In this document: piece after piece, positions 49,918-52,695 of the stretch | Layout of the letters: each line of letters opens with the position of its first letter | Position numbering within the stretch: the stretch's first letter is position 1 | Source of the DNA: Cytophagaceae bacterium | GTDB lineage: Bacteria; Bacteroidota; Bacteroidia; Cytophagales; Spirosomataceae | Direction of reading: 5' to 3' | Assembly (NCBI GenBank): GCA_027488335.1 | Contig: JAIYBU010000038.1 | Span: forward strand, 1 to 59,393 | DNA: 59,393 nucleotides | Translations under genes and position numbers: made by a program | Notes under the pieces: generated by a model | Databases searched by the model: none | Seen by the model: only the letters and a program-made list of their open reading frames with translations | What the model was told of the DNA's origin: nothing

Positions 49918-50889
49918 TTATTTTTTTAGTAAAGCAAACTCTTTTGCAAAATAGCTCAAGATAATTTTTGCTCCCGCACGTTTGATGCTTAGTAGCATTT
50001 CGAGCATTGCTTTGTCACCGTCGAGCCAGCCATTTTGGGCAGCTGCTTTTATCATGGCATATTCACCCGAAACATTATAAGCCGCAATTGGTAAATCGAA
50101 ATTATCAGCCATTGTTTTGATAACATCTAAATACGAAAAAGCAGGTTTTACCATCAAGAAATCGGCACCTTCGGCCACGTCCAGTTGGCCTTCAATAAGG
50201 GCTTCTCGCACATTGGCAGGATTCATCTGATACGTTTTCTTATCGCCAAATTTTGGGGCAGAATCAAGGGCATCACGGAATGGGCCATAAAATGCACTCG
50301 CATATTTGACCGAATACGACATGATACTTACATTCGTAAAGCCTTCATCGTCAAGCATTTCTCTAATATACCCAATACGGCCATCCATCATATCCGACGG
50401 ACCGATAATATCTGCTCCTGCACGGGCTTGTGCGAGAGCCATTTTGCCCAAAATATCAAGCGTTTCATCGTTCAGAATTTCGCCATTTTCAACCAATCCA
50501 TCGTGGCCATCGCTGCTGTACGGGTCCATCGCTACGTCGGTCATGAGAGCAATGTGTGGAAATTTGTCTTTGATTTCGCTCAATGCTTTCAAATAAAGCG
50601 TATCGGGATTATGACTTTCGGTAGCGTATTTATCTTTTTTTGATTCGGGATAGTTCGGAAAAAGACAGATAGATTTGATTCCTAAATCAGAAACCTCTTT
50701 GATTTCTTCGAGCAAGGTATCTATCGAAAAGCGATAAATATTTGGCATTGACTTTATTTCGCTCTTGATACCCGAACCTTCCATCACAAACATCGGAAAG
50801 ATGAAATCATTGACTGAAAGGGTGGTTTCTTGTACCAAATCTCTGATGGCGGCACTTTTTCTATTTCTACGTGGGCGACTGATTAGCAT
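49918..50889 (-). CDS. hemB: Porphobilinogen synthase (delta-aminolevulinic acid dehydratase)
   Basis: A 323-residue enzyme joining two aminolevulinate molecules in heme synthesis. Schiff-base lysines are Lys195 (SYSVKYAS) and Lys248 (MVKPA). The segment that holds three zinc cysteines in zinc-type enzymes reads DVAMDPYSSDGHDG (118-131), with Ala, Asp and Asp instead, so this is the non-zinc, magnesium-type form. RPRRNRKSAAIRDLVQET is the normal N-terminus. A family A palindrome lies upstream, and pyrC follows 27 nt downstream. Confidence 0.97.
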   Translation of the reverse strand: MLISRPRRNRKSAAIRDLVQETTLSVNDFIFPMFVMEGSGIKSEIKSMPNIYRFSIDTLLEEIKEVSDLGIKSICLFPNYPESKKDKYATESHNPDTLYLKALSEIKDKFPHIALMTDVAMDPYSSDGHDGLVENGEILNDETLDILGKMALAQARAGADIIGPSDMMDGRIGYIREMLDDEGFTNVSIMSYSVKYASAFYGPFRDALDSAPKFGDKKTYQMNPANVREALIEGQLDVAEGADFLMVKPAFSYLDVIKTMADNFDLPIAAYNVSGEYAMIKAAAQNGWLDGDKAMLEMLLSIKRAGAKIILSYFAKEFALLKK

Positions 50890-52021: not shown

Positions 52022-52050
52022 TTGATTTTTAAAAAAACTTTGTACCTTTG
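52022..52050 (+). promoter_or_regulatory. Promoter of the greA leader
   Basis: TTG at 52022-52024, 18 nt, then TACCTTTG at 52043-52050. Transcription should begin a few nt downstream, giving a leader of about 165 nt before greA. No other good promoter is visible between here and the greA start. Confidence 0.65.
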
Positions 52051-52067
52051 TTATTCAAAATAAGCAA

Positions 52068-52118
52068 ATGAAAAGAAAACGAACAAATAAAGTGCTATTT
52101 CGCCCGAAAATAAGATAG
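52068..52118 (+). CDS. Putative 16-residue leader peptide in the greA leader
   Basis: ATG at 52068, TAG at 52116-52118, encoding MKRKRTNKVLFRPKIR. Eight of the 16 residues are Lys or Arg, and the ORF begins about 18 nt after the -7 element. It is followed after 32 nt by an intrinsic terminator. The position, size and composition resemble leader peptides of attenuators, but translation is unproven; it might instead be chance in an AT-rich leader. Confidence 0.45.
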   Translation: MKRKRTNKVLFRPKIR

Positions 52119-52150
52119 TTTCTGGACTAAAAATTTGGTTTTATACAGAG

Positions 52151-52179
52151 ACGGTCGAAAATTTTCGCCGTTTTTTTTT
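52151..52179 (+). terminator. First terminator in the greA leader
   Basis: ACGG plus CGAAA pair with TTTCG plus CCGT (one bulged T) and are followed by nine Ts. It faces only the plus strand: there is no A tract upstream for use by fmt. Confidence 0.8.
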
Positions 52180-52184
52180 GTCTT

Positions 52185-52207
52185 ACCCCTAAAGTTTAGG
52201 GGTTTTT
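52185..52207 (+). terminator. Second terminator in the greA leader
   Basis: ACCCCTAAA and TTTAGGGGT are perfect complements around one G, followed by a short T run (52203-52207). It ends 14 nt before the greA ATG, so it could also block ribosome access. Confidence 0.8.
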
Positions 52208-52221
52208 AAATTTTATAAATT

Positions 52222-52695
52222 ATGTCAAAGATTCAATATTACACAGAAGAAGGTTTTAATAACCTAAAAAATAAACTTCACGAATTAAAAACTAAAGGTC
52301 GTGCCGACATCGCTCGTCAGATTGCGGAAGCTCGTGATAAAGGCGATTTATCGGAAAACGCCGAGTATGATGCCGCCAAAGATGCACAAGGTTTAATGGA
52401 AATGGAAATCTCAAAATTAGAAGAGATTGTGGCGAGTGCTCGTATTTTAGATGAATCAACGATTGATACATCGAAGGTTTCGTTGTTATCGAAAGTAAAA
52501 ATCAAGAATAAGAAAAATGGCGGTACAATGACTTATACATTAGTAGCTGAAGAGGAAGCGGATTTGAAATTAGGTAAAATTTCAATTAATTCTCCATTTG
52601 GAAAAGGTTTATTTGGTAAAAAATTGGGTGAAACTGCCGAAATTCAAGCACCTGCAGGTGTGGTTGAAGTAGAAATTTTGGAGATTACGAGATAA
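52222..52695 (+). CDS. greA: Transcription elongation factor GreA
   Basis: A 157-residue protein of normal length. The N-terminal coiled coil (YYTEEGFNNLKNKLHELKTK to about residue 75) carries the acidic tip with the GDLSENAEYDAAKDAQG signature that enters the RNA polymerase channel and triggers cleavage of backtracked RNA; the C-terminal FKBP-like domain (82-157) ends in VEILEITR. The ATG at 52222 is confirmed by the family N-terminus. Transcription from the visible promoter must pass a 16-codon ORF and two terminators before reaching it, so expression is probably set by readthrough. Confidence 0.97.
   Translation: MSKIQYYTEEGFNNLKNKLHELKTKGRADIARQIAEARDKGDLSENAEYDAAKDAQGLMEMEISKLEEIVASARILDESTIDTSKVSLLSKVKIKNKKNGGTMTYTLVAEEEADLKLGKISINSPFGKGLFGKKLGETAEIQAPAGVVEVEILEITR

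Follow-up and report, generated by a model that had tools for sequence, protein, structure and literature searches.

Conserved pairing and predicted folding point to a probable ribosome-mediated attenuator in the greA leader of Spirosomataceae

We analyzed the leader of greA, the gene for a polymerase elongation factor, in a 59,393-nucleotide (nt) stretch of DNA from a Cytophagaceae bacterium of the family Spirosomataceae (GenBank assembly GCA_027488335.1, contig JAIYBU010000038.1; hereafter the window), together with greA leaders of the same family. The leader carries a short open reading frame (ORF), which is followed by an antiterminator-like hairpin (AT) and by a terminator (T1) that has bases in common with it (Table 1). 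On the grounds of sequence conservation and modeled folding, this leader is probably a ribosome-mediated transcription attenuator, a reading to which we give a probability of roughly 0.65. We have strong confidence that the family has a conserved attenuator whose leader ORF is conserved as well, and moderate confidence in the direction of control, in which completion of the ORF would lead to termination and missing or slow translation to readthrough into greA. That the ORF is translated we infer, as we do the regulatory signal and the purpose considered below.

The window alone provides weak evidence for such a leader. A terminator consensus scan of this DNA detected only a second terminator (T2), which is at chance level (1 terminator in 1.1 kb versus 0.8 expected), and 1 of 200 shuffles folded at least as well as the leader (z −2.2). 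We accept the leader as real because T1 and the ORF are conserved across the leaders of the family, and not because of the window by itself. greA was present in 198 of the 200 sampled genomes of this family, and the best-scoring greA loci among those listed gave 139 leaders from 31 genera, 11 rows of genera g31 and g32 being left out (g-numbers label genera and L-numbers label leaders; the window's genus contributes 10 leaders). T1, defined as a hairpin with a CGG..CCG core followed by at least 8 T within 14 nt, was found in 139 of 139 leaders. A leader ORF of 8 to 23 codons was likewise found in every one of them (136 with an ATG and 3 with a GTG start), the ORF being defined as starting 4 to 70 nt after a TAnnTTTG element and ending 20 to 50 nt before the T1 core; the occurrence of this element 4 to 70 nt upstream of the ORF start in 139/139 leaders is therefore part of the ORF criterion itself. 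Where several in-frame starts were possible, the start giving the length nearest to 15 codons was chosen (20 in g5), and in 41 of the 139 leaders the start codon lay exactly 17 nt after TTTG. In the 119 unique sequences, the other two frames over the ORF span are interrupted by a stop in 78 and 71 cases, respectively. From the ORF stop to the T1 stem there are 22 to 38 nt (median 31), and at least 27 nt in 133/139 leaders. Passages of a study of E. coli describe that, once the stop codon lies more than 27 nt away, a ribosome standing on it ceases to repress a terminator (PMC4824070), so that the spacing observed here fits a model in which a ribosome standing at the stop leaves T1 free to fold.

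The preliminary description of this DNA noted neither AT nor the codon signal described further below. The 3' arm of AT extends into the foot of the T1 stem, where it takes in three bases that are mostly GAA. An AT with at least 5 pairs adjoins T1 in 131 of the 139 leaders, its 5' arm starting no more than 9 nt from the stop in 129 of these 131, and AT and T1 have at least 2 nt in common in 132/139. Complementarity of the same bases to two partners is the mark of a terminator/antiterminator pair. We aligned 39 distinct sequences from 25 genera (alignment A1), from which 6 of 46 representatives without a clear AT were omitted (g4, g12, g13, g14, g18, and g30); AT pairing in A1, where 78% of the AT cells pair, therefore holds for leaders that appear to have AT, while the AT/T1 overlap count and the whole-leader folds kept all 139 leaders. 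In this alignment, the T1 pairs were intact in 99.3% of the cells, and 6 of the 8 AT pairs were changed on both sides. AT and the T1 core considered together paired in 85% of the cells, compared with 31% to 57% when slid. Column shuffles, which ignore relatedness, indicated that such double changes are unusual, since they were matched in 1 of 500 shuffles when counted by cells and in 10 of 500 when counted by pairs. The AT stretch alone was more stable than mononucleotide shuffles (mean z −2.0), although this extra stability was weak or absent in g13, g22, g25, g30, and g31.

To analyze how a ribosome would affect the competition between the two hairpins, we folded whole leaders from the expected transcription start to the end of T1 and masked, as occupied by the ribosome, all bases between 18 nt upstream and 11 nt downstream of the stop codon's first base. 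In the 139 leaders, the predicted probability that the base of T1 forms was 0.30 in the free RNA; a ribosome at codon 3 brought it to 0.35, and one at the stop to 0.91. Placing the ribosome at the stop raised this probability in 115 of the 139 leaders and lowered it in 4. As a control, the part upstream of T1 was shuffled with dinucleotides kept (up to 3 leaders per genus, 58 leaders from 31 genera, 12 shuffles each). Shuffling increased the probability in the free RNA from 0.30 to 0.85, and with the ribosome at the stop real and shuffled leaders gave 0.93 and 0.90, respectively. The real free value was below that of the shuffles in 54 of the 58 leaders and in 30 of the 31 genera. This suggests selection on the upstream part to counteract T1 as long as the stop is free of a ribosome. 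Altogether, family conservation, covariation, and folding support the proposal of the preliminary description that the greA leader is gated by a terminator with leader translation as the likely control.

The leader ORF of the window is rich in lysine and arginine (8 of 16 residues; arginine codons in the order AGA, CGA, CGC, AGA). Across the family this richness is present and modest (24.8% lysine plus arginine versus 19.8% and 19.0% in the other two frames), and the stronger signal is the arginine codon CGA. Of the 1740 codons in the 119 unique leader ORFs, 186 are CGA, versus 133 of 25985 in the long open frames of 30 of these loci (11 genera). This is a 21-fold excess, and CGA accounts for 66% of the arginine codons in leaders versus 11% in long frames. 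Part of this excess over genes reflects the avoidance of CGA by genes, and the comparison with the other frames is stricter: weighted by genus, CGA makes up 8.0% of the in-frame codons and 2.6% of the codons in each other frame, and it is higher in frame than out of frame in 22 genera, lower in 5, and tied in 4 (Wilcoxon p 0.0005). In the draft genome, which is 94.7% complete, 31 transfer RNA (tRNA) matches were found, and all but one were scanned for their anticodons. The tRNA-Arg genes among them carry TCT, CCT, CCG, or ACG, and a TCG anticodon was not found. CGA is therefore presumably decoded through inosine at tRNA position 34. Passages of a study of the Salmonella his leader call CGA poorly translated and report that it increases de-attenuation (PMC4046918). 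We rejected a conserved functional peptide as the product of the ORF, since codon position 3 was not clearly more variable than positions 1 and 2 in most genera examined; in the best sampled genera, g5 and g32, all three positions vary alike, and some excess at position 3 was seen in g1, g17, and part of g23. What appears to be kept in the leader ORF is the frame, the position of the stop, and usually a slow codon, and not the peptide itself.

These features can be combined in the following model. The polymerase would start near position 52057, the expected transcription start, and transcribe the 16-codon ORF. A ribosome that reads promptly and stands on the stop would cover the 3' end of the ORF together with the 5' arm of AT; T1, about 30 nt beyond the stop, would probably be out of its reach and could fold, thus ending transcription. 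When translation is absent or slow, typically at CGA, AT and pairings with the ORF would hold the bases that T1 needs, and the polymerase would read through to greA. GreA would consequently rise when translation lags behind transcription, a state in which polymerases are without a trailing ribosome and backtrack more. Such an increase would make sense: passages of a study of transcription-translation coupling describe that a ribosome close behind the polymerase makes it less prone to pause and backtrack and that GreA helps to rescue backtracked polymerase (PMC10135430). A tentative extension, to which we give rather less than even odds, is that the leader is a sensor of coupling in which the slow, inosine-decoded CGA serves as a stopwatch of the ribosome against the polymerase, so that a lagging ribosome switches GreA on; our confidence in this purpose is low to moderate. 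If it were true, the cell would tune its anti-backtracking capacity to its translation speed, by a circuit in which an ORF and an antiterminator have been added to a plainer early terminator such as lies ahead of greA throughout the phylum. A study of E. coli states that even in that organism the control of greA is incompletely understood, and it invokes a further unidentified factor (PMC6829880). Because translation of the leader is here predicted to set the supply of GreA, single-base changes in cultivable strains of this family could directly test a link between coupling and the rescue of backtracked polymerase.

Several observations weigh against the attenuator model. The folding is thermodynamic and the ribosome footprint is assumed, and leaders of one genus are not independent of each other. 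When the stretch from the stop to T1 was folded alone and free of ribosomes, the probability that the base of T1 forms was at least 0.8 in 23 of the 31 genera. AT alone thus loses at equilibrium, which means that opposing T1 needs the pairings with the ORF, or that AT acts kinetically by forming first. In the window's own genus, the probability was 0.41 in the free leader and rose to 0.75 when a ribosome stood at codon 3 and to 0.99 when it stood at the stop. A lack of translation is therefore predicted to have more effect in this genus than early stalling, which gives little relief. Genus g23 is similar (0.27, 0.93, and 0.92, respectively), and in g12, g13, g15, g24, and g30 the value was at least 0.85 even in the free leader. 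The number of pair types in AT is unremarkable, with 121 of 500 column shuffles as high. Genera g4, g12, g14, and g18 (one leader each, L122, L139, L164, and L204) have a terminator-like hairpin that replaces AT: in these four leaders, the ORF stop is followed by ATCACTC..GAGTGAT and T, which results in tandem terminators right behind the ORF. In-frame CGA is lacking in 22 of the 119 unique ORFs, including 8 of the 9 in g23, and the variability of codon positions described above means that a classical coding signature is not seen in most genera examined. Finally, T2 has no visible antiterminator and no visible means by which the polymerase would bypass it.

We examined how far greA leaders of this kind extend beyond the family. 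A promoter element (TAnnTT[TC]G) followed by a terminator was found before greA in 73 of 80 named Bacteroidota loci, which include some of the window's family. Of the 227 remaining open frames at these loci, mechanical open frames that served as controls, 8 had the combination. Counting any terminator, the numbers were 78/80 for greA at the named loci and 89/227 for the control frames. Within the family, the promoter-plus-terminator combination was found in 109 of the 139 leaders, as long 5' regions exceed its 150-nt limit, and a terminator of any kind in 139/139; in other families of the order, the figures were 33/61 and 52/61, respectively. In several other Cytophagales families, the hairpin core lies about 5 to 32 nt after the nearest promoter-like element, which leaves no room for an ORF. 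Such short-spaced greA leaders (within L031-L110 and L250-L316) would give very short RNAs like GraL, the RNA of the E. coli greA leader. Three leaders, L264, L298, and L304, possibly bear an ORF outside the family, and three of family f22 (L267, L274, and L275) have two terminators between the promoter and greA and no leader ORF. Because many greA terminators outside the family leave no room for an ORF, it seems from these sequences that a plain early terminator is widespread and that the ORF and AT are an addition in some lineages. The preliminary description inferred that this organism had built such a leader independently; the leader is not peculiar to it: the ORF version is in all 139 family leaders, and an early greA terminator is common in the phylum. 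This suggests that early greA termination has persisted or arisen repeatedly in distant bacteria.

The distribution of the plain terminator bears on an alternative in which the leader resembles GraL and lacks control by the ribosome. T1 would then be constitutive or tuned by GreA, would set a low level of greA, and would perhaps release a small RNA, the ORF being incidental or protecting the RNA. Besides the promoter and terminator ahead of greA throughout the phylum and the terminators without evident room for an ORF, this explanation would draw on the weakness of AT by itself at equilibrium and on a T1 core that never varies, as if the sequence itself mattered. Passages of the E. coli study also describe that GreA amplifies termination at GraL (PMC6829880). 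The ORF in every leader of the family, the narrow range of its stop position, the excess of CGA, and the strength with which the upstream part counteracts T1 relative to shuffles speak against it, and we regard it as improbable. In likeness to the leader described here, the E. coli greA leader has an early intrinsic terminator just downstream of the promoter; in E. coli about 19 nt precede this terminator, at which termination seems to be amplified by GreA, while here an ORF and an antiterminator-like hairpin lie between promoter and terminator, and the words "leader peptide" do not occur in PMC6829880. An origin of hairpins and ORF by chance, as the chance-level terminator scan of the window alone would allow, we reject as extremely improbable in view of the conservation in 139/139 leaders and the covariation.

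The remaining alternatives keep the ribosome as the regulator and change the signal. Arginine makes up 16.1% of the leader residues versus 3.7% of those of six genes of the window, which, along with the share of CGA among arginine codons, would suit an attenuator specific for arginine or tRNA-Arg in the manner of trp and his: scarcity of charged tRNA-Arg or of the inosine modification would stall ribosomes at CGA and induce greA. On the other side, greA is not an arginine gene, 8 of the 119 unique ORFs are without any arginine, and a generally slow codon as a timing device would account for the data, which makes such specificity unlikely, if slightly less so than the GraL-like explanation. The trp, his, and ilv leaders resemble the present one in their short ORF, in an antiterminator and a terminator that share bases, and in a stop codon placed where a ribosome should free the terminator without reaching it; in contrast, the target here is a transcription factor, the peptide is unconserved, and the marked codon is generally slow. 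Less probable still is a sensor of polymerase speed like that of pyrBI, in which the ribosome would catch up whenever the polymerase pauses. Such a sensor would suit a gene whose product is a polymerase elongation factor, and the same parts would respond to pausing in the leader. In pyrBI, the translated region reaches the terminator, and ribosome catch-up results in readthrough; here the stop lies 22 to 38 nt before T1, so that catch-up should cause termination instead. The E. coli pyrBI leader is thus alike in linking the progress of ribosome and polymerase, as described in passages of PMC4824070, and differs in that its expected sign is opposite and that here the translated region stops short of the terminator. 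With these alternatives weighed, the ribosome-mediated attenuator that responds to missing or slow translation is the reading we prefer.

Among the matches listed in open-licence PMC papers, we found no report of a greA attenuator controlled by a leader ORF or of any greA leader in Bacteroidota. The greA passages of the paper on greA and rnk attenuators by Naville and Gautheret (2010) mention no leader peptide, and "Bacteroidetes" and "Bacteroides" have no occurrence in its text. Leader-peptide attenuation has been proposed in Flavobacterium psychrophilum, of the same phylum, but for amino-acid biosynthesis operons, according to passages of PMC9723704. Nor is greA mentioned in the main text of PMC9723704 or in that of a second Bacteroidota transcriptome paper.

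The coordinates of the leader and of the adjoining genes are given in Table 1. Direct reading of the sequence confirmed the promoter, the ORF with half of its residues lysine or arginine, the hairpin with nine T, and the second hairpin close to greA, all of which had been described before. A promoter behind T1 that bypasses the hairpins, which would have spoken against the earlier proposal, was not seen: TAnnTTTG, the promoter type covered by that scan, is in none of the 139 gaps between T1 and greA. A plasmid similarity search gave a single match, which was related to fmt.

Table 1. Features of the greA leader and the flanking genes (positions are those of the window).
Feature	Position	Strand	Remarks
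Promoter, Bacteroidota-type, TTG-N18-TACCTTTG	52022..52050	+	TTG 52022-52024, 18 nt, TACCTTTG 52043-52050; read directly
Leader ORF, 16 codons, MKRKRTNKVLFRPKIR	52068..52118	+	ATG at 52068; TAG ends at 52118
Antiterminator-like hairpin (AT)	52119..52151	+	5' arm directly after the stop; 3' arm includes 52148-52151
Terminator T1	52148..52179	+	ACGG..CCGT core stem; hairpin around ACGGTCGAAAATTTTCGCCGT; nine T at 52171-52179
Second terminator T2, hairpin ACCCCTAAAGTTTAGGGGT	52185..52203, T run to 52207	+	Ends 14 nt before greA
greA, the regulated gene	52222..52695	+	NCBIfam GreA NF001263.0, E 5.7e-53
fmt	51983-51072		Divergent from greA, back to back, with the leader between

The core of T1 (52151-52171 in the window) is fixed in sequence as well as in pairing (CGG..CCG in 39/39 sequences), and ACGG..CCGT recurs in other Cytophagales families. 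It looks as though this core were recognized by its sequence, be it by a protein or a target RNA. T2 was found by a strict scan in 33 of the 139 leaders, including 10/10 of the window's genus, and we dropped it as a general feature of the family; the expectation that the ORF and both hairpins would be conserved in relatives was thus borne out for the ORF and T1 (139/139) and not for T2. In g20 and g22, a hairpin-like T2 sequence that the scan did not pick up is visible by eye. T2 occurs in at least two unrelated sequence types, ACCC..GGG (g1, g15, and g23) and TGCTGGCAA..TTGTCAGTA (g2, g28, and g36, with a near form in g11).

An Rfam search of the window gave no match at the gathering cut-off, and we took the best sub-threshold match to a known RNA family, L20_leader (21.3 bits versus a cut-off of 58.7), as chance. 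A covariance model of the leader (R1) was run on 28 genomes. All 17 matches with E ≤0.005 lay before greA, the source sequences of the model matching by construction, and the best match away from greA had an E of 0.0109, in a genome of another family (G204). A general element that serves other genes as well is therefore not supported. The combination of promoter element and terminator has a higher background in the window, where it was found for 7 of 52 frames, greA among them. The other six (within 230 nt upstream) are the frames at 683, 32052, 46353, and 47398 on the forward strand and at 50889 and 59000 on the reverse strand, and some of these signals may be the ends of upstream genes.
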